NCBI GenBank assembly: GCA_037833965.1
Contig: AP031359.1
Location: 678,001-742,000 of the forward strand
Direction: 5' to 3'
Origin: Marchantia polymorpha subsp. ruderalis
Taxonomy: Eukaryota > Streptophyta > Marchantiopsida > Marchantiales > Marchantiaceae
Length of the DNA: 64,000 nucleotides
Of the stretch, positions 6,462 to 64,000 are shown piece by piece (the stretch's first letter is position 1; the number at the start of each line of letters is the position of its first letter). The position numbers and the translations under genes were made by a program. The notes under the pieces were generated by a model, which saw nothing but the letters and a program-made list of their open reading frames with translations, was not told where the DNA came from and ran no database searches.

Positions 6462-6474
6462 AGCAACAAGGACC

Positions 6475-7606
6475 AGCATGTTGGACTTGTGGATGTAGTC
6501 ATATGAGGAAAGATTGTTCTCAAGAGGGCGGTGTACAAGTTCCATAGGTTAGACCTTAGCCGACATAGGTTCTGTGTGACCATTGTGGTTGAGCGTATCA
6601 TCCTCTAGAGCGATGTTTTGACCTTCATCCAGATTGAGATCTTGGGATAGAGGTCGTGGTAGAGATGCTCCACGAGGCCAAGGTGGTCGAGGTGTTAGAG
6701 CTGATGGGGCAGATATCACCGAACGACCTGTAGTAGAGGTTAATCCTACCACGTGGCTGCTCAGATTGAGTAGTTGAAGCAGAGGCTTGCTGCTACGGCT
6801 AGTTCTAGAGTAGGGATTTCCATTTCTCATGAAGGAAAAGATTTCTCCTATTTGGCAAGTGCAGCCCAAGTTGAGGCATCGGTTGCATTGACCAGAGGTG
6901 CTACACATGCTTAAGAATCACACAATGCGACCGTGGAGTTGGATCTTTAGAGGGGTGAGGGTGGAAGGCAAGCTAAACTTTTCCAATCATTTTTGTTGTC
7001 AGAGGTGGGCAAGACTTCATCCATGGTTCATACACCACCGAGTGATACTATAGTGAGGATTGAAGCATCTACATCACATGTTATGAACACGTAAACATCA
7101 TCTACTGTAGTGATGCGGATGACTACTTTGATGATGAGATTTCCAATGTTTTTAGCCACGGAGCTTATGGCCTTTGGGGTTGAATTTGCTTGTGTATTTT
7201 GTGTAGCAGCCACGTTGTGTGAACGTGGAAGTGTCATTGCTACAAGTGCCGAGATATGCGAGAGTTTTGTTGGGAAGCAACCATCAACGTCTACAATGAG
7301 ATATGAGGCGACTTAGCATGTGGCAGCGGCAAGGATGGAGTTATTACCAATCCGGCTAGCCATTGATCGTGAGAGTATTGTCCCTAGTGTGTGTATGATG
7401 GACAATCGGAGTGGTTTGTTTCGCTTGGTGAATTCTACAAGACAAGTGTATGTCCCAGCCAGAGTTTTGCTTGACTCTGGTGCACAATCCTTGATGTTGG
7501 GCAAGGCAAACTGCATTAGTTTGAAAGTTTGGAGATCTGAATTGAAGCCTTGTCCATTCAAGATTCAGACATCACTTGGCGGTGCAAGTGATAGATCTTA
7601 CTTGGA
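6475..7606 (+). pseudogene. gag C-terminal part and aspartic protease of element A
   Basis: Starts within gag at a zinc knuckle (CWTCG...HMRKDC near 6479-6520) and passes a second, damaged knuckle. It runs through the region matching gag residues 400-560 of the intact relative, then enters protease with VLLDSGAQSLMLGK near 7466-7507, where DSGA is the catalytic motif. This copy keeps a Gln after DSGA where the 57-kb copy has a stop. The protease core breaks off after SDRSYL at about 7602. Several TAG/TGA codons occur upstream. Inactive, but unmistakable by alignment with the minus-strand copy. Confidence 0.85.
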
Positions 7607-7960
7607 TTGTGAGTCTCGATTTCGTTGAACAACGGTGTTTTTGCATTGATTAGATAGTTTCTACACCAGTGGTTAGCTCATTGCCTACCGAAATGATAGA
7701 ATCAATGACTGGAGGCAGCAAGCAAAATATTTGTCATCCTTAGAGTTCTTGGGACGTGAGAGGGCCTGCTAGAGTTGCAGCCTAGACAGTTGGGAGAGTT
7801 TCTCACGTGGAGATTGATCCAAAGGAGGGTACAAAAAGCAATATCAATTCTTTGGAGGATGTTGCAAAGCAACTAGTGAGAGAGTCGTCTCCCCCTAGTG
7901 TGCCTATAGAGAAGGATTGGGAGCTATTTTTTGATCCCTAGATCATAGGAGGAGAGAGAC
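7590..7960 (+). pseudogene. Deletion scar: protease fused to the last part of the methyltransferase
   Basis: Immediately after protease SDRSYL the sequence continues as TGGATTGTGAGTCT..., which matches the end of the methyltransferase in the intact relative (TWIVSLGLAEQ, minus strand about 55415). The spacer SSLPT...WDV...ARVAA then follows, leading into RT. The middle and end of protease and about 310 codons of methyltransferase are therefore missing, and the break is clean. The junction lies within about five bases of 7603 and shares a short CTT. This shows element A descends from a methyltransferase-bearing element. Coding potential here is lost (several stops). Confidence 0.75.
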
Positions 7961-9330
7961 GTCGGTTGACACAATTCCTACGTGCGTATAGGAATTGTTT
8001 TGCCTTCAAAATGAAGAAGTTAGGAGCTTTGATTGGACCAAGTATACGGATAGAGTTGGCTAGTGATACGCCAATCTTTTGTCATATCTATCAATATAGT
8101 GATATGAAAAGGGACTTGATTTGGAGTAGCACGTTGGATCTACTAGAGGCAGGATTAGTGGAGTTGTCGCATGGTGAGTTTGCCTAAGACAGTGTCATGC
8201 CGGTGAAGAAGCATGTACATGGCAACTACACGTATATGCAAATGTGTAGAGACTATTGTGCTATCAATCGAGAGACAAAGTTCAAAAAGTATGCCATGCC
8301 TACACTTGAGGAGATCTTTGATGTGATGGAATATGCGAGGATTTTCAGTACTTTGAATCTTCGAGCAAGATATCATCAGTTGTCGATTCGAGAGGAGCAC
8401 AAGACTAAGACATCATTTTGGGGCGTCAACTTTCACGGCAAAGATTGTTTGTATCAATGGCAATTCTTACCCTTTGGGTTGAAGAATGCACCTGCCAAGT
8501 TTTAGAGAGTTATGAACAAGATCCTAGCGGGGTTGGATTATGTCAAGTGTTACATTGATGATATCTTGGTGTTTAGCAACACGATTGAGCAACATCATAT
8601 ACATTTGCAGATTGTGTTTGAGCGGTTGAAGTCTCATGGTCTGCGGTTACATCCGGGAAAGTGTTAGTTCTTCCAAGAGAAAGTTGAGTACTTGGGTCAT
8701 GTGATCTACCCAAGTGGTTTGGGAGTTCAGAAAGCAAAGGTAGAGGCTATTGCACTCATCCTTCGTCCGACAAAAGTGAGTAAAATTTGTGCATTCATGG
8801 GTTTGGCAAACTACTATTGGAGATATGTGAAGGGATTTAGTTCTATAGTCAAACCTTTGAACAAATTGTTGAAGTCAGATCAGGAGTGGCAATGGAGAGA
8901 TGAGCATGAGACAGCTTTTGTTGAACTCAAGTCCAGATTGGTGGCCGCTTCCATCTTGAGAAGATCCATCAGAGTTCTTCCATACCAGTTGCACACTAAT
9001 TGGAGTATGTTGGGACTTAGAGCGATGTTGACGCAATGTGATGATGAGGGCAAGGAGTTTGTGGTTGCTTATGCTAGCTGTTTAAACAATGCAGCGGAAT
9101 TGCAATATAGTTCAAGGACGAGTGTTTGGCAGCAGTATGGGCTATGTCACACTTCAGATGTTACTTATTTGGCACGCAGTTTATCCTTGTCACATATCAC
9201 CAGCAGCTGAAGTGGTTTATGGAGTCCGACAAGCTCATAGAGAAGCTTGCATGACGGGCTCTCATCTTACAATAGTATGACTTTCAGGTGATGCATAGAC
9301 GTAGAGTTGTGAACCTTGATGCTAATGGTT
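7960..9330 (+). pseudogene. Reverse transcriptase and RNase H of element A
   Basis: RT reads through LTQFLRAYRNCFAF, PVKKHVHGNYTYMQMCRDY, LRARYHQL and LPFGLKNAPAKF, then the catalytic CYIDDILVFSN near 8550-8580, and MGLANYYWRYVKGF. RNase H begins near 8995 (LGLRAMLTQCDDEGKEFVVAYAS). TAG codons replace residues at 8503 (expected Gln) and 8666 (expected Lys), and a frameshift near 9115 splits RNase H. The VTDHQ motif is changed to VTYHQ. Order and spacing are those of Ty3/gypsy pol. Confidence 0.9.
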
Positions 9331-9399
9331 TGAATTGAAACCCATGCACTAGCCAGGAGGATGACACTAGAGCTAGATGACATGATGAGGTGGATGAGG

Positions 9400-10398
9400 A
9401 GATGATGTCTAGTTGGCATGCATCAACCTTTTTGTGTTTGTTGCGTGAAGACTCTAGTAGGGAGGATCACTTGACATCTTACTATAGTCAAGGATTGAAT
9501 GATTAATCTCCATATCTTGAGATTGAGGATGGTCCTATGGATCAGCGTGATATTCACGATGATGCCTTAGTATTGGAATTACTACAAACCAGTAGGATGT
9601 CAGGCACAGTGAGTGCTAAGAAGCGAGATCGTGTTCACCAACGCATGAGGAGGTATCAATTAGAGAGAGCATATATTCTTCGAGTGTTGGAGGACGGTAG
9701 GATACGAGTAGTACTGCATCCAGCTCAGAGAGCACGCATCGTGCGGCATGCTTATGAGGAGTTATGACATTTTGAAGTGAAGCGTACATATAGCTTACTC
9801 CTTAGTCAGTGTTGATGGTGGGGTATGTATACTCAAGTACAGTAGTTGGTATCACGTTGCATAGTTTGTGATCAAGTGAAAGCATCGTTCAATGCTCCAA
9901 CACCAGAGTTACATCCATTGCCTATCATGAGGTTGGATTACGGTTGGAGTATGAACTTCGCTAGACCATTACCTTTGATTGTGCAACATCATCGAGACGT
10001 ATTGATGATGGTGGAGCATTTCTCCAAGTGGATTGAGTTGGTGGCATTGCCAGACAAGGCGAGTGAGGGAGCAGCGTATGCTTTCCTTGACTGGATGCTT
10101 AGTCACTTTGGTGCACCAACTGAGGTGTTGACCAATCAAGGTACTGAGTTTCAGGATGAGTTTTAGGTCTTGTGTGACAACACGCTGATTGATCATCAAA
10201 CCACGTCTCAAGATCATCCAAAGACGGATTGTTTGGCTGAACGTGTTGTACAGACAGTGAAGAAGGCGTTGGGCAAATATGGCAAACAGAAGAGGCATCT
10301 TGGAGAGTGGAATATTTAGTTATCATGATTGGTCATGGAATATTATTTCAATTGTCAAGCATCCTCTACTTACTTCTCATCATATTTTCTATTGTACG
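9400..10398 (+). pseudogene. Integrase of element A, 5' part
   Basis: Contains the segment matching QRDVHDDALVLE of the relative and the HHCC zinc-binding region (HAYEEL, then SRCIVCDQVKA near 9850-9890). The core begins at MNFARPLPLI (9950) and continues with HFSKWIELVALPDKASEG and VLTNQGTEF. Asn replaces the second catalytic Asp, and the first (normally SLDFA) is also Asn. Stops at about 9763, 9812, 9841 and 10164 correspond to Gly, Tyr/Trp or Gln codons in the relative. The frame is cut by the insertion at 10399 just after YFLLY. Catalytically dead. Confidence 0.9.
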
Positions 10399-44426: not shown

Positions 44427-44434
44427 GGCACGTG

Positions 44435-47429: not shown

Positions 47430-47803
47430 TGTAACAACAGATAAATACCAAAGTGGAGCATAATGGTAAAGATCCGATCCCACGAGTACAGAAACAATAT
47501 CGTCAAATATTGTCACGTTTAACATTCTATTGACGAGTTTTACCTCTCAGGCACATATCACTCATAGAAGGATCTACAAGTGTTAATTCAAAGGCCATAC
47601 ATCTTATGTTCCAGCATCTTGCACTCCCACTATAGTCTAATGATCCGAAGATAGTTGAGGCTGCGACGTAGCCTCGCTCAAGTCTGCGTTGTCCAGTACT
47701 TCCTTCCTTCTGCGTCGTGCCTTCATCTTACTGCAAATCCGCTACGTCAAAGAACATCTTCCAAATCCAAAAGCGTATGCAATCTCCTTCACCTCTTCAC
47801 AAG

Positions 47804-49609: not shown

Positions 49610-51308
49610 TGTAATGACAAATAAATACCAAAATGGAGCATAATGGTAAAGATCTGATCCCACGAGGACAAACAACACAAAGAGTACCGATTGTCACGTA
49701 TATAACAGACTATTGAGGAGTTTGAATTCTCAGGCTACTGTCACTCTCAGAAATACTACAGGTGTTCGACTCGGAGGTCACTCGGAGGACACGCAATGCA
49801 GCGTAATACACACCAACACACACCTGAAACAAGTAAATGCAAAACTCAGAGGTCGATCATGACCTCAACTTAAGATTCAGGGGGGAAATTTTCCAAGTAC
49901 ACTGAGAGGACATGTAGCTAGCAGCCAATTACGAATTTGCTTAAATCTTGTCACTAGCCAGACGCTATTTCAAAACATTTGAATTGGAGCTCCTACTTCG
50001 GATGCGGTACCTTCGTCAAACCGAAGTCAGTGTTACGCGGTGAACAACACACTCAACTCACAAAACGCGCAGAGAATACATAAGTTCGAATTGAGAAAAC
50101 TAAATTGAGAAAAGACCTCTAAGGCCAACGCCTTGGACTACTTTATTCCTAACTACCAAAAACTGTCATCTGCTGCGGTGCGAGCACCGAACAGGTCCTA
50201 CGCCTTCGGGATCGGTAGGTGCCGCCCCCTGTTATCTCCGCTCTAAACCTAATCTTTGCAAAACGCCTACTAATTCTACCGCTAACTTTGCTACCGCGTC
50301 GCGTGATCTGATAAGATACGATTCTAACTTCTTACACAGCCGACGGTGCCTACGTCCGCTCTTTTTGATTAACTCGGCAGCACGATGTTCAATCTCGCGT
50401 AACCGAAGCCCTTTGTGAGATTTGATCTGCCACAGCGTGTATCCGCGCACACATCGCTCCACGCGCGCAGTTAAGGCTTCACTCGTTTCTCCCGATAACT
50501 GCCGAATCTTCCCCTCGGCCTCCGTCAATTTTGCCTCCACCTCGCATAACTGCTCTTTCGCTTGCGACCGTTGCGTCCTCAACTCTCCACACTGTGCCTG
50601 CAATTTCTCAATTAACTCCGGGTCCGCGATCCGCGCGGCTTCGTACTCGGATATCTTCTTCGTCTTTACCGCCAACTCGGCCTGATACTCTCGCTTTGCT
50701 TCCTCCACGGCGGCCTGCAATTCATCTACCTTTAAGGACTCCGCGTCGTATGCGATTCGGCAGGCTTCCAATCTCTTCAGAAGGTCTACGCTGGCGCACT
50801 TAGCCCTCTCCACGTCTTCACGAAGACTGTCACTAGTTTGCTTCGCCTTCCGTCACCTTTCAACTTCCTAAGTCTGCTTCCTTTGGAGTGCCTGGTACTT
50901 CGCTTCTGGGACTTCTCCACGTAGGACTCACCGGGATGCCTTCGACGTACTTCTCCCGCTTCCGGTCGAGGTATTGTAGCAACGTTAGCACCTGCACACT
51001 CAACACCTCAACGGCACCCAAGGCTACCGACTGTGCCTCTTTTGCTAAGAGTTCCGCACCCTTCTCCAATATGATGGTATCAGTGGAGGTCCGAGGTGAG
51101 ATCGCCTTCTGTGATTCACCCTCGGTTGCTGCCACGTCTTCCACGGCCTTTGCCGCTACTTCCTCTTACGCCACCGGGTCCTCCTCAGTATCCGAGGACA
51201 CCGGTAAGACCTCAGCGGCCTCTACCCGAGGTTCCTTCCCCTCAGGTACATCTTTCTTGCTTCAAGGGAACGTCCTCAATCAAAATGGCCTTCCTCTTAT
51301 CTCTCCTT
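49610..51308 (-). mobile_element. Coiled-coil-gene element, copy c2 (3' half)
   Basis: The plus-strand left end TGTAATGACAAATAAATACC matches 47430, and the next 600 bases match 10399-10930 (TTCAGGGGGGAAATTTTCC; GCGGTACCTTCGTCAAACCGAAG). It holds the linker and coiled-coil parts of the gene and is cut at 51308 by the repeat-flanked unit at 51309-51836. Confidence 0.7.
50232..50813 (-). CDS. Coiled-coil C-terminal part of the repeat-family protein (copy c2)
   Basis: An open frame of 193 residues rich in Glu, Lys, Arg, Ala and Leu with heptad-like spacing (LKVDELQAAVEEAKREYQAE, then EKLQAQCGELRTQRSQAKEQ), so very probably a long coiled coil. It ends with a basic segment and AVAKLAVELVGVLQRLG, similar to the end of copy b. 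A separate frame upstream (51144-50860) carries the linker and VLTLLQYLDRKREKYVEG, matching PLLKYLDGKRGKYA in copy a; a frameshift separates the two. It is a fragment of a larger gene, unlikely to be expressed alone. Confidence 0.45.
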   Translation of the reverse strand: MERAKCASVDLLKRLEACRIAYDAESLKVDELQAAVEEAKREYQAELAVKTKKISEYEAARIADPELIEKLQAQCGELRTQRSQAKEQLCEVEAKLTEAEGKIRQLSGETSEALTARVERCVRGYTLWQIKSHKGLRLREIEHRAAELIKKSGRRHRRLCKKLESYLIRSRDAVAKLAVELVGVLQRLGLERR

Positions 51309-51424
51309 TGTCGTGCAAATACATATCGCCATACACTCTACATCGCTGACATGCTACTCACATACACATACGCACACACATACACACATATAAGGCGCGA
51401 GAGAGTACACACTCAAATGTCACA
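51309..51424. repeat. 115-bp direct repeat, left copy
   Basis: Starts TGTCGTGCAAATACATATCG and ends AAATGTCACA; nearly identical to 51722-51836. Contains a CA-rich microsatellite-like core (ACACATACGCACACACATAC). Confidence 0.9.
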
Positions 51425-51426
51425 AC

Positions 51427-51719
51427 TGAAATGAACGGGAGATTCCCAACTGGAATTCCCGTCGATCAATTACCCTACTTGCAACAAACCGTCACCGTCA
51501 CAAACATGAGTCAAGCCCAGCCCACTCCACACTCGGAGAATCCAGGTCGACGCAAAGAGGAAAGTCACTCTACGCTCCCAACGCTTCCAGGCTCGACTCG
51601 AAGAACTAACGTTCTTCGAGCCGTCCTCGACTCTATACCCCTCGTGACCCGAACCCTATTTCCACGTCTAAATATATTAAGTGTCTAAACTGCGTGAGCC
51701 GACTCGTAGCTACATGACA
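51427..51719. repeat. 293-bp TG...CA repeat, copy 1
   Basis: Starts TGAAATGAACGGGAGATTCC and ends TACATGACA. About 95 percent identical by eye to 62605-62897, with a diverged copy at 34735-34945. TG...CA ends suggest an LTR or retroelement interior. No coding potential. Contains an internal inverted repeat (TCGAAGAACTAACGTTCTTCGA). Confidence 0.85.
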
Positions 51720-51721
51720 GC

Positions 51722-51836
51722 TGTCGTGCGAATACATATCGCCATACACTCTACATCGCTGACATGCTACTCACATACACATACGCACACACATACACAC
51801 ATATAAGGCGCGAGAGAGTACACACTCAAATGTCAC
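51722..51836. repeat. 115-bp direct repeat, right copy
   Basis: Second copy of the repeat at 51309-51424, TGTCGTGCGAAT to GTCACA. On the minus strand it starts TGTGACATTTGAG immediately after a purine-rich tract (AGGGGGGCGAG at 51839-51849), the arrangement expected at a polypurine tract followed by a 3' LTR. The two repeats with the 293-bp segment between could be a miniature LTR element of about 530 bp. Confidence 0.85.
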
Positions 51837-52008
51837 AACTCGCCCCCCTAGCTGGCGGTCAGGTCCCTCTGACTCCCGGGTAGCCCTATCTACAGCTACA
51901 TGCTATACACCTTCGTGGGTGCGCGAACCAGTAGGCCGGGTGCTATGTCGCCCCATCGTTAGTCACATATCTGCAATTCATAACATGTGAAGATCAAGTC
52001 ATCTACCC

Positions 52009-52590
52009 CTATGAAGTACATCGAGGACAAACCCATCGTCCAACCGGAATAACATCGATAGGCGGAGTTAGACACGACATGTGCCATCCCCTAGAGCACC
52101 TATCACACACCAACATACGGGCCGCCTGACCAGCTGACCCACATAGCATGCACCTCAAGCCAGCACGTACTATCGCTAAGCTTGGGTCCATAGTGCCATC
52201 TACGTTTGGGAGGTGGCATGGTGCACAATTGCGCACATGATCCTTCCAAACAACGCCGTCACGACCCTCCAACATGAGAACTCTAGAAGGTAACACCTTC
52301 CGCACTCGCAAGATTGTGCGTCCCGCCGTCACATCCAATGTCGTCGGTGCAGTCTGCTGTAGATAGACGTAGTCTCCCACATGGAATTTACGAATTGATG
52401 ATCGATAACCTCCTCCCCGAATGGTTGCATATCGCAACGTATCTCTATGTTGAGCAATCGCAAGATTCTCAAACGCTACAGGCATAACTCTCCGAAAGAG
52501 CTCTGCACGCTGAGAACATACTCTCACCCACATATTCGGGTCATCAAGGTTCACCACCTCGCTAGACGAATCGATGTTGGCAAGTCTGGA
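52009..52590 (-). CDS. Integrase C-terminal region with PHD finger
   Basis: An open frame (52671-52009; homology starts about 52590) reads EVVNLDDPNMWVRVCSQRAEL, FENLAIAQHRDTLRYATIR and FHVGDYVYLQQTAPTTLDV, the SH3-like/GPY-type DNA-binding region of Ty3 integrases. The last 47 residues form a PHD finger: C-x2-C (CMLC), C-x2-C (CDRC), H-x2-C (HMSC) and C-x2-C (CPRC), i.e. C4HC3, with the conserved Trp of GRWVCPRC. PHD fingers read histone H3 tails. It occupies the place of the chromodomain of chromoviruses and may steer integration. It is in a -1 frame relative to the integrase core. Confidence 0.88.
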   Translation of the reverse strand, partial: SRLANIDSSSEVVNLDDPNMWVRVCSQRAELFRRVMPVAFENLAIAQHRDTLRYATIRGGGYRSSIRKFHVGDYVYLQQTAPTTLDVTAGRTILRVRKVLPSRVLMLEGRDGVVWKDHVRNCAPCHLPNVDGTMDPSLAIVRAGLRCMLCGSAGQAARMLVCDRCSRGWHMSCLTPPIDVIPVGRWVCPRCTS

Positions 52591-52599
52591 TCTCGGCCG

Positions 52600-53520
52600 T
52601 ACAATAGAAAATATGGTGAGAAGGAAGCCAAGGATGCCTGCCGACTGAATCGATATCCCATGGCCAACCACGGTAACTGGATATCCTAGTCCCCAAGATG
52701 ACCTTTCTGCAGGCCATACTTGCGCAACGCCCTCTTCATCGTCTGTACAACACGTTCAGCTAAACCATCCGCCTCTGGATGATCTCGCGACGTGGTCCGA
52801 TGATCAATCAGTGCCTTGTTGTACAAGACCTGAAACTCACCCTGAAACTCCGTTCCCTGATCGGTCAACACCTCAGCTGGTGCACCATAGTGACTAAGCA
52901 CTCTGTCAAGGAAACCATACACTACTCCCTCACTTGCCTTGTCAGGTAATGCCACCAACTCAATCCACTTGGAGAAATGCTCCACCATCACCAACACATA
53001 CCGATGATGTCGTACAGTCAAAGGTAGTGGTTTAGCAAAGTCCAAACTCCAACGGTAACCCAACCCCATGATGGGTAATGGATGTAACACTGGTGTCGGG
53101 GCATTGAATGATGCCTTCACTCGATCACAAACCATGCAACGTGATACCAACTGCTGTACCTGAGTATGCATACCACGCCACCAATACTGACCAAGGAGTA
53201 AGCTGTATGTACGCTTCACTCCAAAATGTCCCAACTCCTCATGAGCATGTCTCACAATGCGTGCTCTCTGGGCTGGATGTGAAACTACTCGTACCCTACC
53301 GTCCTCCCACACTCGGAGAACATGTGATCCCTCCAATCGGTATCTCTTGGCCCGTTGGAGAACACGATCTCGCTCCTTGGCACCCATTGTGCCTGGCACC
53401 ATGCTCGTCCGTAGGAACTCCAACACCAATGCATCATCGTGAACATCACGCTGATCCACACCACCATCCTCAACCTCAGGATCTAAAGATCGACCATCTA
53501 CTCTCTGACTAGAGTAAGAT
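52600..53520 (-). pseudogene. Integrase, zinc-binding and catalytic core
   Basis: Zinc-binding region HAHEELGHFGVKRTYSLLLG...SRCMVCD (HHCC). Core: WSLDFAKPLPL (Asp), VEHFSKWIELVALPDKASEG, EVLTDQGTEF (Asp) and PEADGLAERVVQTMKRAL (Glu), so the DDE triad is complete. A TAG at 52688-52686 replaces Trp of element A. The frame continues with LPWLAMGYRFSRQASL and FSPYFLLYGRDPDLPTSI, then ends within ten codons; the downstream region is in another frame. Confidence 0.93.
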
Positions 53521-53649
53521 GTCAGATGATCCTCTCTGCTGGAGTTCCCACGTAACCAACACATGAAGGCAGATGCATGCCAACCAGGCACCATCTCCTC
53601 GTCAACCTCACCATGCCATCTAGCTCCAGTGTCATTCTCCTGACAAGTG

Positions 53650-53993
53650 CATGGGTTTCGATTCAAACCATCGGCATCTAGGTTCGCAACTCCAGGTCTA
53701 TGCACTACCTGAAAGTCGTACTCCTGTAAGATGAGAGCCCACCGTGCAAGCTTCCCTGTAAGCTTGTCGGACTCCATCAACCACTTGAGCGGTTGATGAT
53801 CAGTAACAAGGGTGAATTGCGTACTAAACAAGTAACACCTGAAGTGTGCCACAGCCCACACCGCTGCCAAGCACTCTCCCTCGTACGAACTATACCGCGA
53901 CTCCGTTGCATTGTTCAAACGACTAGCGTACGCAACCACAAACTCCTTGCCCTCATCATCACGCTGCGTCAACACCGCTCCAAATCCCAACAT
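53650..53993 (-). pseudogene. RNase H domain
   Basis: Continues in the RT frame. LGFGAVLTQRDDEGKEFVVA, then YEGECLAAVWAVAHF (catalytic Glu near residue 40 of this segment), LVTDHQPLKW (Asp about 65) and ANLDADGLNRNP (Asp about 106). This is the typical Ty3 RNase H without an archaeal-type insertion. Open throughout this stretch and continuous with integrase. Confidence 0.92.
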
Positions 53994-55130
53994 ACTTCAA
54001 TCAGTGTGCAATTGGTATGGACGACCTCTGATAGGTCTCCTCAAGATGGAAGCGGCCACCAACCTGGCCTTGAGCTCAACAAAAGCTCTCTCCTGCTCAT
54101 CTTCCCATTGCCACTCATGATCTGACTTCAGCAACTGGTTCAAAGGCTTGGCTATAACACTGAACCCCTTCACATACCTCTGGTAGTAGTTCGCTAAACC
54201 CATGAATGCACGAACTCTACTCACATCCGTGGGACGAGGGATGCGTGCAATAGCCTCCACCTTTGCTTGCTGAACTCCTAAACCACCTGGGTATATCACA
54301 TGACCCAAGTACTCAACCTTCTCCTGGAAGAACTTACACTTCCTAGGATGTAACCTCAAACCATGAGCCCTCAATCGCTCAAACACAATCTGCAAGTGTA
54401 TCTGGTGTTGCTCCACAGTGACTCTAAACACCAAGATATCATCAATGTAACATCTGACAAAATCCAGCCCTGCCAGGATTCTGTCCATAACCCTCTGAAA
54501 CTTGGCAGGTGCAATCTTCAACCCAAAGGGTAAGAATCGCCACTGATACAAACAATCCTTGCAGTGGGAGTTGACGCCCCAAAACGCTGTCTTGGTTTTG
54601 TCCTCCTCCCGAATTGGCAACTGATGGTATCTTGCCCGAAGATCCAAAGTACAAAAAATCCTTGCATGTCCCACCACATCAAAGATCTCCTAAGGTGTAG
54701 GCATGGCATACTTATCGGACTTCGTCTGCCGATTGATAGGACGGTAGTTTCCACACATGCGCCTATCCGTGTAGTTGCCATGAACATCCTTCTTCACCGG
54801 CATGACAGTGGCTCACACATACTCATCATGCGATAACTCCACTAGTCCAGCCTCTAGTAGATCCAACGTCCTACTCTGAATCAAATCTCTCTCCATCTCA
54901 CTATATCGATAAGGACGACGGAAGATTGGCGTATTACTAGCCAATTCTATCCGTATACCAGGTCCAATCAACGCACCCAACTCCTTCATACTGAAGGCAA
55001 AACAACTCCTATAGTCTCGTAGGAATTGTGTCAATCGTCGCATCTCTCCTCCTGTGATCTAGGAACCAATCAATGGCTCCCATTCCTCCTCCATAGGCAC
55101 ACTAGAGGGAGGCGACACTGTCAATGGTTG
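53994..55130 (-). pseudogene. Reverse transcriptase of the methyltransferase element
   Basis: In frame: MRRLTQFLRDYRSCFAFSMK, GIRIELASNTPIFRRPYRYS, VMPVKKDVHGNYTDRRMCG, LDLRARYHQLPIREEDKTKT, QWRFLPFGLKIAPAKFQRVM and the catalytic CYIDDILVF (YIDD at about 54449-54438). MGLANYYQRYVKGF and the RT-RNase H connection follow. Stops are at about 55060, 54815-54813 (TGA), about 54690 (TAG) and 53999-53997 (TGA, Trp in element A). All key RT motifs intact. Confidence 0.93.
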
Positions 55131-55186
55131 CTACGCTACACACTGCAAAGAAGGGTTCTCCGTACCCTCCTTCGTAGCCACCTCCA

Positions 55187-55232
55187 CATGAGAATCCTCT
55201 CCAACTGCATGCAGTTGGAGAGGATTCTCATG
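55187..55232. repeat. Perfect 46-bp palindrome between methyltransferase and RT
   Basis: 23-base arms with no loop (CATGAGAATCCTCTCCAACT...), centred on TGCATGCA. It lies in the linker and is read through by the minus-strand frame (AHENPLQLHAVGEDSHVE), which stays open across it. Confidence 0.97.
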
Positions 55233-55404
55233 GGCTGCAACTCTGGCAAGTCCTTTCGTCACGTCCCATAAACTCCAAGGATGACGAATATCTCGCCTGT
55301 TGCCCCTAGCCATTTCCACTACTGTCCCGGTAGGCAATGAGCTAATAAGTGGTGTAACAACCACCAAATATGCGCGCAAACGGCGTTGCTCGGCCAAACC
55401 CAAG

Positions 55405-56702
55405 CTCACAATCCACGTCAAGCAGTTCAGGTCCATAGCCTGACCCAAAACTTGACGACGCGACGCCTCTGAAACTGAAGAAGCCGCGGTCACACCAGTA
55501 AGAAACCCCATCGCACGCTCTCTCTCATCAGCGTTGGGCTCCACCAACTGATGTAGGGTACTGTCCCACAGTAGTCCAGGTCACTCATCACGATATGCAT
55601 GTGATGCCGAATAACTGACCAACGTAGGTAAAGCCATCCGAGGCTGACCTACGTTGTTCACCTTCGCTATAGGTGACTTGTCAGCAACTCTCACTACCTG
55701 AGAGTGTCGGAAAACATCTAAGATACTGTCAACGGTGAGTGTAGGATCACGCTACACAGAATCATAGGCATGACGCAATATCTCACGTGGCAAAAGGTTG
55801 GTCCATCATTAACGTGCACGATGAGCCCGTGATCCAACCCTCGCAGCATCCAACAGTACTGCTGATCCAATCCATGCTCGGACTTGATGGACACTCGCCA
55901 TCAACTGGGCCTGAGTGTCACCCAACAATGGTACGTTCTCCAAAATGTATGCTGGAGAACGCATCTGCTGCACTTGGAGATGACGTAACACTCGCATCAT
56001 CTCCCAAAACATCCGAGATCTGGGATCATGCAACCCTGTCCCATGTCCAGCGCGTGTGTGTCCTTGACATGGCCAGCCCGCGATCACCATATCAATATGG
56101 CCAACGCGGTCAAGGTCTAGCGCCCCCAGCAACGAAATGTCTGAAGGCAACGCCTTCTAGAATCCTCGGACAGCTGATCGCGGCAATAACGAAGGAAAAC
56201 GCCGCATCAACTGTGCAACATGTCGTGAAGAGACTCGACGTGCAGTCTCGTCCTTCTCCACATACAAGTATCTCCGTACGAGAATACCTGACTGCAACAC
56301 CGCAGCCAAACCTGTGCTGATCCCACCAAAAAGATCCAGCAAACAAACACCCTCTGAGGAATACTCCCATGCAATAGGTGTAGTAATCAATGGAGACAAT
56401 GCGCTAGAACCACTAACTAGCCGATCAGCTGAAGTCCTGTCTGGCTCTGTTGGTAAAGAGGCTTCACTCCAAGCCTTTTTCACCAACCTAACAGCCTCCA
56501 ACTGTAGTGCCTGGCACGAACTCCACAGTGGAACATCTAAGGGTGAAGTCACCGCCGCTGTGAAACTCACAACCTCCTCCACATCCTCGTAGACTGAGGT
56601 ATCGTCGGCAGACATGTTCCCCTCCAACAAGTCATCGGGCCAGGTAAGCACTCCGCTAAAACCCGCAACAGATGCCAAGACCGCTGATGAAGATCCAATA
56701 GG
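55405..56702 (-). pseudogene. DNMT3-like cytosine-5 DNA methyltransferase domain within pol
   Basis: Transfers a methyl group from S-adenosylmethionine to C5 of cytosine. In the same frame as gag and RT. After about 115 leader residues come motif I (CLLDLFGGISTGL, 56345-56310), RYLYVEKDETARRV, and motif IV IDMVIAGWPCQGHTRAG with the catalytic Cys codon at 56069-56067. Next are DPRSRMFWEMMRVL, motif VI YILENVP (55940), and motif VIII-like LLDAARVGSRAHRAR followed by WTN (55850-55797). The C-terminal block has NADERERAMGF and SEASRRQVLGQAMDLNCLTW (55530-55413), i.e. motifs IX-X. The GIxTGL, RY.Y.E and AHRAR..W.N pattern is DNMT3/DRM-like rather than DNMT1-like. Stops: TAG 56159, TAA 55811, TGA 55808, TAG about 55755, TGA about 55585. 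Catalytic residues intact. No target-recognition or reader domain of its own is seen upstream. Confidence 0.92.
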
Positions 56703-57062
56703 TCAATTCCAAGAAATAAATCTCACTGGTAGCTCGCTCAGACGTCCATCTCCGGACTGCCAACCAGGACGATATGCGGCAGTCTCCGTCCAGTAGTCCA
56801 TCCGAAAGCCCATAGGGTATAACACCACTCCACCAACAAGCACATCATATGACTCTGCCGATGTAACCACAGCACGAACTCCAAACTGCAAGCTATCATG
56901 AGGGTGATCATGCCTCAACTGCACCGCTATGCTCTCCCTGGTTATAAAGTAAGACCTATCGCTGGCGCCACCAAGGGATGTCTGGATCTGGAATGGGCAA
57001 GGTTCCAACTCTGACCTCCAAATGCCCAAACTAATGCATGCAGCCTTGCCCAACATCAAGGG
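56703..57062 (-). pseudogene. Aspartic protease, remainder
   Basis: Continues in frame after the TAG at 57065-57063: LMLGKAACISLGIW, then PFQIQTSLGGASDRS and SYDVLVGGVVLYPMGFRMDYW, where the DVLVG segment is the second conserved glycine loop of retropepsins. It ends at a TGA (56705-56703) after VRFISWN. Downstream the same frame stays open into the methyltransferase. Confidence 0.85.
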
Positions 57063-59250
57063 CTATGCACCAGAATCCAACAAAACTCTGGCTGGGACAT
57101 ACACCTGTCCAGTAGAACTCACTAACCGAAATAAACCACTTCGGTTGTCCACCATACATACACCTGGAACAATACTCTCGCGATCAATGGCTGGGCGAGT
57201 TGGTAAGGACTCCATCCTCGCCGCTGCGGCCTGCCAAGTCGTCTCCTCGAACAATGTAGACGTTGAGGATGGGTCCTCAACTGTATCCTCACTTATCTCG
57301 GCACTAGTAGCAGCGACTCTCCCACGCTCACACGACGTGGTTGCTACCCGAAATACTCGAGCCAAATCAATACCAGAGTCTATCAACTCCGTGGCTGAGA
57401 ACAATGGAGATCGCAAGACTGAAGTGGCCATCCGCATCACTGCACTAGATGGCACGTCTACGTCCACAACAGATGATGTAAGAACCTCAGTTCTCACTCT
57501 AGTGTCACTAGGCGGTGCAGGTCTCGTAGATAAACTGCTACCCACCTCTGACAACAAAAAGGACTGGGGAAGTCTAGACTGACGTCCACCCTCACCCCTC
57601 TGAGGGTCCAACTCCACAGTCGCACCACGTGGCTCTGAAGTGCGAGCACCACCTCTGGTCACTGCAACTGATGCCTCAACCTGTGCTGCACTAGCCAAAT
57701 AGGAAAAATCCTCTCCCTCGTAAGATGTGGAAGTGCTCGCCCCCAGACCAGCCATAGCAGCAAGCCTCTGCTCCAACTGCTCAATCCGAGCAGCCATAGC
57801 GCTCTTTGTGGCGGAAGTAGCACTCGCTGCGGTACGCTCAATGGCCCTGGTACCTCTACCACCTCTACCGCCTCTGCCACCTCGATCACCTCGGCCTCGC
57901 GAAGCATCACCTCCACGACCTCTACCTCCAGATCTCAACTTAGGATGAAGGTCAAAGCAACGCTCTCGAGGGTGACCCGGTCGATGACAATGATCACAAG
58001 TCACCTGTGCCGGCTGTGGCCTAGCATGTGGAGTTTGTCCCTCTTGCTCCTGGGAACAATCCTTCCTCATATGATTACCTCCGCATGTCCAACATGACGG
58101 TCCCTGTGGCTGGCCCGAAAATGAAGGCATTGGTGGCCGCGCACTAGGCTTTCTGTGACCTGAAGGATGTCGTGTATGACCTCCACAACTCCCACTTATG
58201 GGGCGAGACTGTACCGGGCTATGTGGAATACGCGAAGTAGTGGTCGTGTCCCTCGCAAATGTAGACGTCACCACCCTCTCCTCCACCATGTCAATCTCAA
58301 TCTTCTCAGAAAGAGCAAACACATGGGCTAATGTGGGTGATGAGTCGCTCATGAGAGTAGCATCACGCACTCTCCTCCGCAACTCTCTGTCCAAGATCCG
58401 ATACCAGTTCTGGACAGCCTGTGCCTCAGTTACACCGTGAGTAATTGAGATTAGCCGTCGCATACGAGTGTATGCCTCACGAAGACTCTCACCAGTCTTC
58501 CGCTCAAACTCCTGGAGGCTCCTCAACTTCTCCGTTTTCACCCCCTGATAATTCTTCCTCAATCTCTGGAAGAACTCGAGAATGGGGCTAAACGAAGGTA
58601 CGCCACTAGCATCTCCCCTCGTGCTGCCACCGGCAATGCTAACAGTACCGCTGCTGGAACTGGTACCAGTTGCGCCAACTGCTCCACTGGTAGCCTCGCT
58701 GATGCTACTACTCGCACCTCCACTGATGCCGATACTCGCACCTCCACTGGTACCCACACCACCCTGGGTAATGGATGAGTAGTTCGGAGACCAATGCCGT
58801 CTCCATGCATCAATCTCTGCAGCATACTCTCTCCCAAACTCATGATAATCGTCCATGGGAGGCCCCTCCAAATGCTGGAATAACCCCTTCCATGCAAAGA
58901 AGGGTGTAAACAACGTGGGGTTACGCAGAAACTGCATATCACACCACGTGTCAAACTCCTAAATTAAATCATCAAGCTCGATGGTGCTCACTGCACTAGA
59001 GTAACGTCAAGGGCCCTTCGCGGCCCCGTACATCCCGTTTATGTCCCAAATCAATGGGGTTGGAACACTAGACGATATCATCACCAAAGACTATGTGTCT
59101 GCAACACTCTGGTCCTGCTCCGCAACAACTGGCGAAATAGGTGAAGGTAGCCGATACCTCAACCCACTCCGCGTAAATCCACCGCGGTCCTCAACAGGAC
59201 CACTAGACTGCTCCGTGATGACGAGACCTCAACTGGCACCACTGCCAGAT
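57063..59250 (-). pseudogene. gag and protease start of the methyltransferase element
   Basis: The open part is 58937-57063 (624 residues); the same frame extends upstream to about 59250 with three stops, one of which (58968 region) replaces the Gln in element C's DDFIQEFD. Residues 1-120 are gag N-terminal and a Ser/Gly/Thr-rich spacer. KTGESLREAYTRMRRLI (148-163) to about 225 is a capsid-like helical region. Knuckles are C282/C285/H289/C294 (one residue shorter than standard) and C314/C317/H322/C327 (standard CX2CX4HX4C). They are followed by an RGG-rich basic region (336-365) and a short coiled coil (about 375-395). It ends at VLLDSGA (618-624), the protease active site, where a TAG replaces the Gln codon seen in element A. 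Confidence 0.9.
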
Positions 59251-59259
59251 CTCCACCCA

Positions 59260-59830
59260 ATAACCCAATCCGCCCCTGACGTTGTGCCGCACTGAGCTAC
59301 TCTAGCCCTACTAGCTAAGGGGTATGGGCAACCTAACCTGTCATCACAGCAAGAAGACTCTCACGGTCTACTGGTCATCACTCCAGTCTCACCGTGAGAG
59401 AAACATAGATAGGCCGGCCGGTGATCAAGTCCAGCCCCCTATCGCTAGCACACAGGAGTAAAACTACTCCGGAAATCAGCATCACCCCTACACGGGCGCG
59501 CGCTAGGAAGCAAGACTGGAGAAGATCCAAACACAAGCAAACAGCTAGCAACGACTCTCCAGTCTAAAGGAAACACATCACAAAACAAGACAACACACAC
59601 GGGACATCGCATTGCTTCGCGATCCCGATTCGATCTCCATCGCCCGCCATCAACTTGGGCCTCCAGCGCCTAAGATGCCCTCTTCCATCAAATTGCAAAC
59701 AAAATTTGTTTGAAAACTTTTTTTTTCTTTTTTTTTCGCTTTTTTTCTCCTTCACACTGAGGTCACACTCCCCCTCAACAAACACACTACACACTGAAAG
59801 CTCAATATATTGACTACGTCATATATATAT
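59260..59830 (-). repeat. Probable 5' LTR/leader of the methyltransferase element
   Basis: Non-coding, shared with element C (45.5-46.08 kb): a TATATATATGACGTAGTC box at about 59815, a GAGGGGGAGTGTGAC tract, A-rich run (59700-59750), GCGCGCCCGTGTAGGGGTGA (about 59490) and TGGCAGTGGTGCCAGTTGAG at about 59240, which could be the primer site because a standard tRNA-Met site is absent. Exact LTR ends not determined. Confidence 0.5.
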
Positions 59831-59914
59831 TTACAATGCTTTCAACACATCAAGTTTACAGGCAGTGAGACCGAGTGCAAACTCCCGATCCCTGCAGTAC
59901 CTCTTGTCTAAACG

Positions 59915-60298
59915 CTACAGGTAGTTGCTATCAATCCTTTGGAAGACTATCAAGAATTTCTCTAGTACAAGAATTTCTTCTGAAAGACAGTCTTGAACAT
60001 ACTGAACATCTCTCAAATGATCAGCAATATCCTTTGGAAGGTCGAGTAATTCATACTCACATATCATGTACTCTAGGCCGGATTCCTCTAGAAGTTTTTC
60101 TACGGCTAGTGCCTCGTCCCAATCCAACCCAGAATTTTTTTTTTCTATCACAACAGTGTTTACCGGATTGTCTTCTACTTGAGGCTGCACCGTCACTTCC
60201 TGCTCGCGTTCCTCGCTGCTGACGACCTCCACTGTCTGAATCTCTGGTAAACTGTCTCCCACTTTCTCACCAAGCGGCATTTTCTCTTCACAAGTCAA
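59915..60298 (-). CDS. Acidic hypothetical protein fragment upstream of the retrotransposon
   Basis: An open frame of 127 residues, very acidic: VEVVSSEEREQEVTVQPQVE, then LDWDEALAVEKLLEESGLEY and a probable helix LPKDIADHLRDVQYVQDCLS with LEKFL. Element C has the homologous tail at 45285-45400 (DHLKDVQ...QDCLSEEILGREKFL), equally followed by the same leader. The pair therefore shares sequence upstream of the presumed LTR. Either the ORF belongs to the retrotransposon family or the LTR starts further upstream. Function unknown. Confidence 0.4.
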   Translation of the reverse strand: MTCEEKMPLGEKVGDSLPEIQTVEVVSSEEREQEVTVQPQVEDNPVNTVVIEKKNSGLDWDEALAVEKLLEESGLEYMICEYELLDLPKDIADHLRDVQYVQDCLSEEILVLEKFLIVFQRIDSNYL

Positions 60299-61652
60299 AA
60301 CTCCAGTGTGTACAAGGATCGTTCATAGGATATCTGTAAACTAGACCATTAAATGGGAATTAGACACCAATTTAACTATAAAACTACTAGATAGTTTTAA
60401 TAGTTTTATATATCTTGTTTATGAACAAATTTTCTTCAACTACTGAATTCAAAACCTCACTAACTCCTTCTGGACTAGAATTCGAAAAATCCAGGAAAAT
60501 GCCTGCTGCAAACTACCTCTGAAAATCTAATATGATAAAACTGAAAGGCACTCAAAGACCTACACAGGCCAACTTCACCTCCTGATTTCTCCACCTGACG
60601 GAATTCTAATTCTCCATCATCGTCATTTACATAACTATTTCTTATGCCCTAGAAACACCCTCTTGCATGGAAAAACACATGCCTCTTCACAAGAAATAAA
60701 GCTATGCTTCCAATGATAGCTGGAAGACTAATGCAATAAACTCTAGCAAGCTGGCGGACTACTGAAGTTGCCTGTCTACTTTCTGTCCATAACCGTATCC
60801 AGTAGAAGAGCTTGTACAGTCTGAACCTGTAGGTTCAAATTTGGACTTTTTCTCCCGTCCAACTTGAGTAGTTAAACTATGAATTCCATCAACAAGCAAC
60901 TCTAATAAAGTCTTCCCGGGTACTGAAAAGTCTTGCACTTTTCTTTAACCTCAGAAAACGCAAAAAGAATAACCTTCTATTCAGTATATCCGTTCCGTCA
61001 ACACTTCTAACCTATTCACGGACCTCTATGGCTGCAGAATACGCTGCACATTCGAGATCTTGAAAATTATCTCAGAGGTTACAGCGATCAGGAACCTTCG
61101 TCCCTCTTCATCGTTCCTCTCTCTAAAAATTTCTTCACGTCCTCTAACAGTCCTTCTTTGTTTACTACCTCCCGACTCAAAGAGCTGGCTTGAGATAATA
61201 AAATATACTGAAGGAACTCTTGTGATGCCACGAAATGGAAAAAGTCGATAAGTCAATCACAGGAAGGGACAGTATGTACATATTATTGTACAAAAACGCA
61301 TCAGCGCTGTTGATTCTTGCATCCGCCCATGTAAGGCTTCAACTACTTCGCTACGTTTAAGAACCAAATCGGGTTCCATGTTCTTAAACAAAACTCCTAA
61401 ACGCTTTTGGGAGGGAACATGAAGCTTCGGTAACCGTCCAAACTGCTGGCCACCCTCATATCTTCACACCTAAGCTTTGACTCTGCAGTAGATAAGCACT
61501 AAATAACTTGGTGTCACGGAGTAGAACGATGGCGGTTCGGGCTCAGTGCACCCACCTACCTCTCCTTGTGACAGTTCTCCGGTTGCAATTTCGGTTGCAC
61601 TTTCTGTTCTCTCTGCTTTCCTCCCGCAAGCCCCACATTCCCAATGACTAGC
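60299..61652. other. Poorly defined region, no recognisable gene
   Basis: Mixed composition. A minus-strand frame at 61256-61026 (RGREEIFRERNDEEGRRFLI, then IFKISNVQRIL) looks protein-like and could be an exon, but no neighbour joins it convincingly. Nothing else supported. Confidence 0.3.
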
Positions 61653-62118
61653 TTATTTCTCTAATAACTCTCCAACTGCCAAGCCGTGGCGAAGTTGTGC
61701 ATGTTTCCCGTCACCACAGACATACTCACACTTTTTCAACAAGCCGATTTCTGTGTCTGCGCGGTCGATGTCCGGCAATTTCGCTGCACCATTCAGAAGA
61801 CATACATTCATTCTCGGCTCCCGCAGCTCTACTCTGACGTCCCTTGACCTAAGTTCTTGCACGACCTCCGACTACCGCGCAAAGAGCTACCTACTATAAG
61901 ATCAAAGAGGAAATCGCCAACAGGTACTGATGTCGGATGAAGGAGCTCGAGGGTGAAGGCACCGCGTCCTGGAACCTCTGAAGAGCCAATTAGAGCGTCG
62001 AAGCGCGGAATTGGACAAGCGAATTCGACGAGTGCCGGAGGTTCTGCGCACGGAGAAAGCTTGCAGAGACGAGATGAAACTCAAAGAAAGTAGCGCATTC
62101 CTCCACCAAATCGGGTAT
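61653..62118. pseudogene. Coiled-coil fragments, possibly of the repeat family
   Basis: Plus strand 61969-62118 reads LEPLKSQLERRSAELDKRIR, then EVLRTEKACRDEMKLKESSA, clearly coiled-coil. On the minus strand 61862-61653 reads NGAAKLPDIDRADTEIGLL and KKCEYVC, weakly like NEFTANLAEQTQKHEAEL of copy b. Two opposing fragments in 450 bases suggest rearranged pieces. Weak evidence. Confidence 0.3.
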
Positions 62119-62275
62119 TTCAAAATCCTACAGATTCTGACACAATCATCAGACCATTATCCATCAGAACAGACGAACGAATGATCGTCGAAACCCCATC
62201 GAGAATCCGGTCGAATCCAATTTCGCAGACGGGATTTGTGAGGAGTGGGCCATCCAGCCGTCCACTCCCGAGCTT

Positions 62276-62467
62276 TTATGCATCCGCGCCTCCTTGCAAA
62301 AACACCACCGGCCGGATCCCTCCTGTGATCAGATCTTGTCTGCTCCCGATGTCTGGCGGCTCGACAATCACATCGCACACAAACCCGGAGATGACCAAAA
62401 AGTACGAGACTAAAACCAAAGCAAACACTGCAGACGCCGACGACAATAACAACGGCGACGTCTTCAA
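62276..62467 (-). CDS. Short frame with N-terminal hydrophobic segment
   Basis: 63 residues starting MKTSPLLLSSASAVFALVLV and continuing hydrophobic to residue 32, then VEPPDIGSRQDLITGG. It resembles a signal anchor followed by the start of a mature domain, and could be the first exon of a host gene read toward lower coordinates. No second exon was identified and a competing frame (62492-62157) overlaps it. Speculative. Confidence 0.25.
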   Translation of the reverse strand: MKTSPLLLSSASAVFALVLVSYFLVISGFVCDVIVEPPDIGSRQDLITGGIRPVVFLQGGADA

Positions 62468-62604
62468 TCGTAAACTCGCACTCTGACTGCAAACCTTAAA
62501 ACTGTCACCAAACTACAGGTTCCAATGAACAAAATCTTTGAAAAAAAACCCTCATCAACTTCGTCGGCTTCGTGCGACCTCCAACGAGAAACGAGTTCTT
62601 CGAG

Positions 62605-62897
62605 TGAAATGAACGGGAGATTCCCCACTGGAATTCCCGTCGGTCAATTACCCTACTGGCAACAAACCGTCACCGTCACAAACATGAGTCAAGCCCAACC
62701 CACTCCACACTCGGAGAATCCAGGTCGACGCAAAGGGGAAAGTCACTCTACGCTCCCAACGCTTCCAGGCTCGACTTGAAGAACTAACGTTCTTCGAGCC
62801 GTCCCCGACTCTATACCCCTCGTGACCCGAACCCTATTTCCACGTCTAAATATAGTAAGTGTCTAAACTGCGTGAGCCGACTCGTAACTACATGACA
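62605..62897. repeat. 293-bp TG...CA repeat, copy 2
   Basis: TGAAATGAACGGGAGATTCC to CTACATGACA; nearly identical to 51427-51719. It abuts the coiled-coil-family gene d at 62898 and is not flanked by the 115-bp repeats. No target duplication seen (cgag left, cctt right). Confidence 0.85.
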
Positions 62898-64000
62898 CCT
62901 TGAAGCCCGAGACTTCTCGACAGAGGTCGACCGACCTTCCTCAGTACAGGACTTCTTCTTGATCAGCTCATCCTTACCATTTGCCGCTTTCTCCACCGAC
63001 CGTGCTTCTTGATTAGAACACTCCTTCCTCACTGTCCTTCTACTCTCAGGACTGCTATCGTTGTCTAGAATTAATCTCTGGCCTTCATCTTCGACCGCGC
63101 CCTAGAGTCAGATGCTTGCATCGCAAAGAGGGCGGTTCGCTGTACCCGCACCTCTTCAACTGTAGCCTCGTCAATTCGACGTTTCTTCCTTGGCTAGGAG
63201 TCCTGCCGAACTCGAGGTCGCTTCCTCCTCTGCTGGGGTGAACTCCGTGGTTCGCCTTCCAGGTCCGAATTGACCTCGTTGGCCAACACTACCTCCTCTC
63301 CTTCTTGTTCCACATTCCGCATTGGGAACGCTATGCTCTCTTCAGCTTTCAGCATGTTCATGCCCCGATAGAAATTGATCAAAAATGGGGATAAGTAACT
63401 AGGCAACCCTCTAGAGAGTAACCCAATGTGCTGTCGGGTGACAGCACATTCCGTTGCAAATGGATACGTTCTCCGCGTAGAGCCCTCTCGATAAACCCCA
63501 CCTGCCAAGTCATCACGTAGGTGGATCGCTGCAGCCGAAGGATTTGCATCAAAGCCATCTCGATACCACACTATGTGGTACCCGTTCTTCCCTGTGCGGG
63601 GATGCTTGAATAGGTCGATGTAAGCTCTCCCTTCTTCTCTCGTCACTCGTACACTCTCGGCATTGAATGTGAGATCGCCATCGTCGCCCGCGCTTCTTCC
63701 CAAGACCTTCTTCCAGTTCCAAATTTCCCTGGTGTCGGGGTGGCCTTTGTATCCCGGCGTTTTGGCAATCCATTGTTGTCCCATTCTTGTATGATTGCAT
63801 CGCTCGTCCAATTCCATCCCCACAATAAAAACTCCATCTTTATCAGAATCAAATCACGACGATAAGCCTGTAAGCCAACCTCGGGCACGCATAGGGCATT
63901 GAGTTTTATCGGCCGCGCCATCGCTAATCCTCGCTCTCCTCGTCCGCACGCCTCTGTCCCGCGTCGACGTCTATTTGTGAAATGCGTGCAACGAGCACCC
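62898..64000 (-). mobile_element. Coiled-coil-gene element, copy d, cut by the window edge
   Basis: Its gene matches copies a, b and c1. It runs off the right end of the window, so its 5' end is unseen, and is cut at 62898 by the 293-bp repeat before any coiled coil. Confidence 0.55.
63194..63921 (-). pseudogene. Conserved N-terminal domain of the coiled-coil family (copy d)
   Basis: The first frame (63921-63770) reads VPEVGLQAYRRDLILIKMEF, then LLWGWNWTSDAIIQEW. After a frameshift the second (63823-63194) reads GDDGDLTFNAESVRVTREEG, HPRTGKNGYHIVWYRDGFDA, CAVTRQHIGLLSRG and YLSPFLINFYRGMNMLKAEE, then a linker with a basic RRKRPRVR patch. The region (T)YVTAWQVGF is present only on the plus-strand complement in another frame near 63500, so a second shift lies there. 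About 209 residues of the second frame are open. Function unknown. Confidence 0.5.

Follow-up and report, generated by a model that had tools for sequence, protein, structure and literature searches.

The stretch of Marchantia polymorpha subsp. ruderalis DNA analyzed here (the window; 64,000 nucleotides) contains a Ty3/Gypsy retroelement with a real DNMT3-like cytosine methyltransferase (MTase), and comparison with related copies leads us to propose that it belongs to a Marchantia family in which this MTase forms the C-terminal part of the Gag-protease product. We assign this reading, together with the life cycle proposed below, a probability of roughly 0.55. The element covers 11,589 bases of the minus strand, from 62897 down to 51309, and contains, in order, gag with zinc knuckles, protease, MTase, reverse transcriptase (RT), RNase H, integrase, and a PHD finger. 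Its features, and a relative in the same window, are as follows.

51309..62897, minus strand: whole element, TGTC...GACA, with a sharp left end, a shared right end, and a flanking 4-bp duplication on either side
62898..62901: target site duplication AAGG, 5' side (partner 51305-51308)
51305..51308: target site duplication AAGG, 3' side (partner 62898-62901)
62605..62897, minus strand: split repeat A1, with 9 differences from A2 in 293 sites
near 62776-62786, minus strand: A1 counterpart of AGTTCTTCGAG, with one change
62594..62604, minus strand: presumed primer binding site CTCGAAGAACT, with its complement inside A
55131..59042 (start approximate), minus strand: ORF1 region, gag-CCHC-protease-MTase, with several stops here and an open counterpart in other copies
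57066..58958, minus strand: open piece with gag, zinc knuckles, and protease site LLDSGA, without a Pfam match
55405..56702, minus strand: MTase segment (linker plus DNMT3-like MTase), with five in-frame stops
55131..55133, minus strand: UAG between ORF1 and ORF2
55125..55130, minus strand: CAA-CCA after the UAG, fitting CAR-YYA
52009..55130, minus strand: ORF2 region, RT-RNase H-integrase-PHD, with a frameshift near 52690-52755 and stops
53997..54689, minus strand: RT, open part (Pfam RVT_1, E 2e-29)
52686..53996, minus strand: RNase H and integrase (H2C2 and core; Pfam)
52018..52152, minus strand: PHD finger at the ORF2 C-terminus (Pfam PHD, E 2e-11; PDB matches)
51841..51849, minus strand: purine tract AGGGGGGCG directly before B1
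51722..51840, minus strand: split repeat B1
51427..51719, minus strand: split repeat A2, with the joint to B1 reading GACA-GC-TGTC
51598..51608, minus strand: AGTTCTTCGAG in A2, complementary to the presumed primer site
51309..51426, minus strand: split repeat B2, right end
6462..10398, plus strand: second, degenerate relative, with the MTase and the C-terminal half of the protease deleted (between about 7603 and 7599-7662)

The original prediction, that a complete DNMT3-like MTase lies between protease and RT within a single Ty3/Gypsy gag-pol frame, was largely borne out. All MTase motifs that it named occur in one minus-strand frame (56702-55405), downstream of LLDSGA and upstream of RT; gag, MTase, RT, and the integrase core share one frame; and Pfam matched RT, RNase H, H2C2, and rve in that order, which, with LLDSGA (read, like the zinc knuckles, in translation) ahead of the MTase, upholds the Ty3/Gypsy assignment and the protease-MTase-RT order. 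Two elements of the prediction require revision: the MTase is complete in its motifs but interrupted by five in-frame stops, and the frame is not continuous, as a conserved UAG parts gag-protease-MTase from RT-integrase-PHD. This readthrough stop had been missed, as had the PHD finger and the split direct repeats. Because of the MTase stops and of a frameshift that splits ORF2 before the integrase C-terminus, the window copy is dead. Changes private to this copy are mostly C-to-T, in every context (CG, 20/468; CHG, 25/506; CHH, 38/1798; A/T transitions, 11/2490), while four open control copies showed C-to-T changes at 2-5/471 CG, 4-8/506 CHG, and 7-12/1797-1799 CHH sites and A/T transitions at 6-11/~2490; this decay fits methylation followed by deamination, a pattern that would look the same whichever agent did the methylating.

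With regard to its surroundings, the element seems to be nested in another repeat with two ORFs (one coiled-coil), and similar ORFs in the same order adjoin the degenerate relative; these features, at 63194-63853 and 50232-50852 on the minus strand and at about 5002-6275 on the plus strand, gave no Pfam match above a curated cut-off. In that relative, the deletion runs from within the protease to the final codons of the MTase, and a short stretch is shared at the joint. A third fragment (45291-47584), 76-78% identical to the element's gag and leader, lies in the opposite orientation, and two direct copies about 3.9 kb apart, with stretches 76-88% identical, occupy 43897-48290. A 349-aa open frame at 30039-31085 (minus strand) gave a weak PAS match, below cut-off; among eight other window ORFs searched with Pfam, the only match above the curated cut-off was RNase H, in the degenerate relative.

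Several lines of evidence identify the MTase. The window segment, with X at the stops, matched the Pfam DNA_methylase profile above the curated cut-off (E 6e-10), and the best solved structure was DNMT3A (E 2e-9), followed by DNMT3B (3e-7) and, more weakly, HaeIII (3e-4), a DRM (0.008), and HhaI (0.04), in agreement with the predicted DNMT3-like character. A structure model for the MTase of a natural open copy, built on a 36-sequence alignment, reached a mean pLDDT of 71 and a pTM of 0.78 and was poor at residues 1-51 and 333-374; each of the top 50 Foldseek matches listed was a DNMT3A or DNMT3B entry, at 17-22% identity. DNMT3 is the nearest solved relative in sequence and fold, and the modeled fold is that of a DNA-acting DNMT3. 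The catalytic W-P-C and further motif residues are invariant across the 36 aligned sequences. Between two subfamilies (21 and 10 copies, 210 pairs), dN/dS was 0.128 for the MTase core, 0.142 for the protease, 0.189 for the linker, and 0.565 for the post-MTase tail, as compared to 0.083 for ORF2 (90 pairs) and to 0.22 and 0.19 for the MTase core within subfamilies, in copies chosen for open frames, which favors low ratios. These substitution patterns show the MTase coding sequence to be under constraint; enzymatic action on DNA, and the purpose of the MTase, are predictions from sequence and fold.

A search of the genome (241 Mb, 9 contigs) with PF00145 gave 123 scored matches among 290 candidates, and the search for copies without stops that had been recommended found open frames of 1351-1365 aa in 24 of the 123; the number of retroelements is slightly below 123 because these matches include at least one host DNMT3-like gene (L001). 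Among the best 150 of 3165 candidate RT matches, 84 had a methylase match within 9 kb upstream, 77 of them at about 1.4 kb. Twelve of the 66 RT matches without a paired methylase were inspected: seven retain the MTase region in full, in some cases with stops or a frameshift, one holds only the last MTase codons, one only the joint, and three nothing; the existence of such copies without an MTase (four with none or the joint only, and the one with last codons) counts against our main explanation. Forty copies, chosen for long frames, were retrieved; 31 of them are free of stops between the beginning of the retrieved piece and one common stop, and in 21 of these ORF2 exceeds 1000 aa (1042 aa in 15, 1045 aa in 6) and carries the PHD pattern in each. 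Taken together, the copies show a family that, by sequence, is large and recently mobile, with young members. When 18 M. polymorpha proteins were compared to the fetched loci, Mp_4g09160 (881 aa) and AXG93_868s1290 (240 aa) matched at 100% and the others at 70-99%. The window contig (5.59 Mb) holds 14 of the 150 RT matches, i.e., 2.5 per Mb, as compared to 0.43-0.72 per Mb on the other eight contigs; this contig, on which the family is densest, may be the sex chromosome.

The stop between ORF1 and ORF2 was TAG, followed by CAA, in all 31 copies (the nine with an earlier stop were left out of this count), and the next codon was CCA in 29, CTA in one, and CAA in one, such that 30 of 31 fit UAG-CAR-YYA. 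This is the tobamovirus readthrough motif (PMC3542737, consulted in part), and its occurrence at an in-frame stop that is conserved and precedes an open frame matches, by sequence, a Type I (tobamovirus) readthrough context. Genome-wide, TAG was found at 89 of 91 sites with identical flanks, a conservation that may partly reflect youth. Stronger support for the readthrough context comes from a more distant relative, L111 (CADCWO010000201.1), a 9.3-kb contig filed under a cyanobacterial metagenome-assembled genome (MAG) that holds a whole retroelement of the Marchantia kind (identity: MTase, 48%; RT, 69%; integrase, 71%; PHD, 53%) and in which the joint reads TAG-CAA-TCA. L111 thus is a eukaryotic retroelement under a cyanobacterial label; because its ends overlap (1-51 = 9159-9209), it was assembled as a circle, through repeat collapse or from circular DNA. 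In addition, 13 metagenome proteins about 50% identical (P0257-P0269) end 88-133 residues after the MTase, without RT. The conserved UAG before RT, the L111 joint, and these proteins together place the MTase, as read from the coding sequences, on the Gag side of the stop, with ORF1 encoding gag-protease-MTase and ORF2 RT-RNase H-integrase-PHD.

The element is bounded by direct repeats that are split in the order A1...B1-A2-B2: the 5' end carries just A1, and the 3' end B1-A2-B2; a plain LTR element was therefore rejected, as identical full LTRs do not occur at both ends. The 3' end was scored at 40 places (771 candidates), with the whole 532-nt unit in 39 and 521 nt in one, at 95-100% identity; a 41st match was partial, at 80%. 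The 5' end carries A only: 39 scored places besides the window (519 candidates) begin at query positions 57-66, mostly at 63-64, which corresponds to TGTC at 62897. In all 11 copies read (the window and ten others, with the left end TGTCTTG of L064 determined by eye), a 4-bp duplication lies just outside TGTC and GACA, and such target duplications are of the type made by a DDE integrase. In the ten A1/A2 pairs computed, 0 to 11 of about 293 sites are different, one pair being identical, and repeat copies within an element diverge by 0-3.9%. The B1/A2 joint reads GACA-GC-TGTC in 10 of 11 copies, with AT in the remaining one, and the precision of the A2|B2 joint is the same in every copy read. 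Directly before B1 stands the purine tract AGGGGGGCG in the window copy and six of seven others, with AGGGAAGCG in the seventh.

Self-priming of reverse transcription is likely, judging from the region after A1. No conserved tRNA primer site was found there in the ten copies read, in which the leader diverges 11-13 nt past A1, while the 11 nt CTCGAAGAACT directly follow A1 in 11 of 11 copies and their complement lies inside A at about +111, exact in A2 in 10 of 11 and in A1 in 8 of 11. L111 shows the same order of purine tract, GACAGCTGTC, and primer site: GACAGCTGTC occurs once, 112 nt after its only AGGGGGG, and a single 13-nt inverted match has its second arm starting at a CA boundary 358 nt past the joint, with the arms spaced by 176 as compared to about 181 in Marchantia. 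Counting against self-priming are the first arm of L111, which lies 182 nt into A rather than about 111, shuffles of L111, which gave a 13-nt match in 7/500 (and an 11-nt match at 150-220 in 13/500), and the exact A1 complement in only 8 of 11 copies.

We thus propose the following life cycle. Most ribosomes would halt at the UAG, such that the MTase would be made and packed in Gag-like amounts, while a minority would read through to produce RT-integrase-PHD. RNA with its start inside A1 would serve as its own primer at the 11-nt site that follows A1, and plus-strand synthesis would begin at the purine tract before B1, so that reverse transcription would define B-A LTRs. The two-LTR DNA would close to a circle (or form a tandem), and integrase would open the palindromic B|A joint GACA-GC-TGTC. 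B-A LTRs and insertions that start with A and end with B could both hold if the two-LTR DNA were circular or tandem and opened at B|A, which would yield exactly A1...B1-A2-B2 (A-internal-B-A-B). We infer a circular intermediate from these ends, but simple end-joining of a circle would not predict an A2|B2 joint of equal precision in all copies. Such precision points to a joint that is templated or made by an enzyme, and a rival with a real, though lesser, chance of being correct is that the split repeats derive from PAT/DIRS-like bridging on the internal B1-A2 stretch rather than from end-joined two-LTR DNA, with integrase then using the completed ends; A1...B1-A2-B2 is the PAT-type order, and DIRS-like repeats have been described for KnitGypsy-Dnmt3 by de Mendoza et al. 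(PMC5890265, as far as available to us). By contrast, the purine tract before B1 and the primer-like site after A1 fit ordinary LTR reverse transcription, and the 4-bp duplications, which show integrase-type insertion, leave no place for the tyrosine recombinase of the PAT model.

As for what the MTase does, our preferred reading is that the enzyme in the particle would methylate new element DNA, giving it a host-like look or protection before insertion, as was proposed by de Mendoza et al. for SymbioDIRS elements (PMC5890265, in the part consulted). The PHD finger would steer integrase to chromatin, and the host would later methylate and silence copies, with the window copy decaying mostly by C-to-T. 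The nearest solved structures of this finger are the CHD4, PHF12, MLL3/KMT2D, DPF, and KDM5 fingers. Several of these fingers read unmodified H3K4, which offers a lead. It is unlikely that the MTase instead arrives with the integrase complex and methylates the insertion site or surrounding host chromatin to create a quiet niche; while the PHD finger on the integrase product does suggest chromatin contact, the MTase is encoded on the Gag side of the stop and is not fused to integrase here, and the architecture with the MTase between RNase H and integrase (see below) would fit such a role better. We consider it less likely still that the MTase restrains the element, acts on RNA, or serves as a structural or nucleic-acid-binding part without need for catalysis. 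Self-restraint and RNA targets were raised in the discussion by de Mendoza et al., in whose yeast test KnitGypsy-Dnmt3 did not methylate (a result that also counts against MTase activity in our preferred reading and that these authors call inconclusive; PMC5890265, parts available); on the other hand, the invariant motif residues and the predicted fold of a DNA-acting DNMT3 argue against these roles.

Relatives of the MTase were listed from Calypogeia, Riccia, Sphagnum, the chlorophyte Cymbomonas, and many metagenomes, and they occur in two architectures, protease-MTase-stop-RT-integrase-PHD and RT-RNase H-MTase-integrase-PHD. One related MTase (P0041) is filed under a Candidatus Obscuribacterales MAG and is probably contamination by an alga; a scan of contigs filed as viral yielded 28 loci at 25-41% identity. 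The recommended phylogeny with host DNMT3 was run: in MTase trees of 39 and 34 sequences, constructed without DNMT1, a bacterial outgroup, or the Klebsormidium sequence, a branch with support 100 parts the retroelement MTases from plant, animal, and phage DNMT3-like enzymes, including the host gene L001 and plant DNMT3 (P0121-P0124). Second-architecture MTases group at support 98 (with P0276), and an RT tree of nine, displayed without support values, separates the same two sets. This separation speaks for an old MTase lineage rather than a fresh capture from bryophyte DNMT3; recent capture of the host gene was rejected, as L001 falls among plant DNMT3 sequences, well apart from the retroelement MTases. 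More doubtful than the bridging model, if only slightly, is a broader reading in which a green-lineage Gypsy clade packages its MTase via stop-readthrough, uses a circle opened by a DDE integrase, and is guided by the PHD finger; the clade would be old, extending from a chlorophyte alga to liverworts and mosses, and the element would write and read chromatin marks while being absent from the methylation machinery described for a model land plant. That a host DNMT3 was inserted just once, into one copy of a retrotransposon, a scenario for which the original prediction had looked to relatives lacking the segment, can practically be dismissed: the one such relative in the window is a deletion, many copies hold the MTase at one place (84 of 150 RT matches, plus seven of the 12 unpaired), other liverworts, Sphagnum, and a green alga also have relatives, and the host DNMT3 is distant in the tree.

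A retrotransposon with its own cytosine MTase is, as the original prediction stated, a concept already published (PMC5890265, consulted in part), and methylase retrotransposons of streptophytes and dinoflagellates have been restated since (PMC12344493, in part); methylase transposons are said, in the part of PMC6338049 consulted, to be absent from land plants such as tracheophytes. PHD domains occur in Ginger transposases (PMC2836005, in part) and, according to a reference title, in CR1-like elements. The titles and abstracts shown by full-text searches held no bryophyte MTase retroelement, Gypsy-integrase PHD finger, or readthrough joint of this kind. As far as this literature goes, the land-plant hosts, the Gag-side MTase with its readthrough context, the PHD finger, the target duplications, the chlorophyte relative, and the MTase lineage far from host DNMT3 are new, which for the host lineage agrees with what the original prediction had suspected. 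Marchantia is a genetic model for land-plant epigenetics, and its genome has dozens of open MTase frames in mobile elements as compared to the five methyltransferases listed, without the word DNMT3 in the part available to us, by a methylome study (PMC5784723). The question, raised since 2018, of whether such elements methylate themselves or their host is now directly testable in a tractable plant, and the ends offer a specific case in which the apparent need of a DDE integrase for circular or tandem DNA can be tested.

Compared to known systems, the Marchantia element shares with Ty3/Gypsy elements gag, protease, RT-RNase H before a DDE integrase with H2C2, and a short target duplication, but lacks identical full LTRs at both ends. 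PAT/DIRS elements carry split direct repeats of the same A1...B1-A2-B2 order, whereas the Marchantia element combines these repeats with a DDE integrase and 4-bp duplications rather than a tyrosine recombinase without duplication. Tf1-type LTR elements self-prime through an RNA 5' end complementary to a site after the 5' repeat; here, about 11 nt of the presumed RNA 5' end are complementary to a site just after the 5' repeat, but the ends are split repeats and the RNA start is presumed. Host and plant DNMT3 show the same MTase fold and motif order in a separate lineage. Cymbomonas tetramitiformis CYMTET_32294 and the metagenome proteins P0271, P0272, and P0274 likewise carry RT, RNase H, integrase, PHD, and an MTase 34-40% identical, but there the MTase follows RNase H and precedes integrase within a single long frame. 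In Symbiodinium, SymbioDIRS-Dnmt3 and SymbioLINE-Dnmt also unite a retrotransposon and a cytosine MTase; CG sites are methylated in yeast by SymbioDIRS copies, and shuffled domain orders coexist, but these elements use tyrosine recombinase or LINE machinery rather than a DDE integrase (PMC5890265, in part). Finally, KnitGypsy-Dnmt3 of Klebsormidium nitens, compared by published description only, shares Gypsy-type domains, DIRS-like repeats, and a Dnmt3-like MTase, reported by de Mendoza et al. (2018) to be intronless, Dnmt3-related, in a "more divergent clade", and under purifying selection; the description, in the part available, makes no mention of a PHD finger, readthrough stop, target duplication, or self-priming, and the element differs from the Marchantia family in its algal host and in carrying the MTase in the Pol polyprotein ORF rather than before a UAG with gag-protease (PMC5890265).
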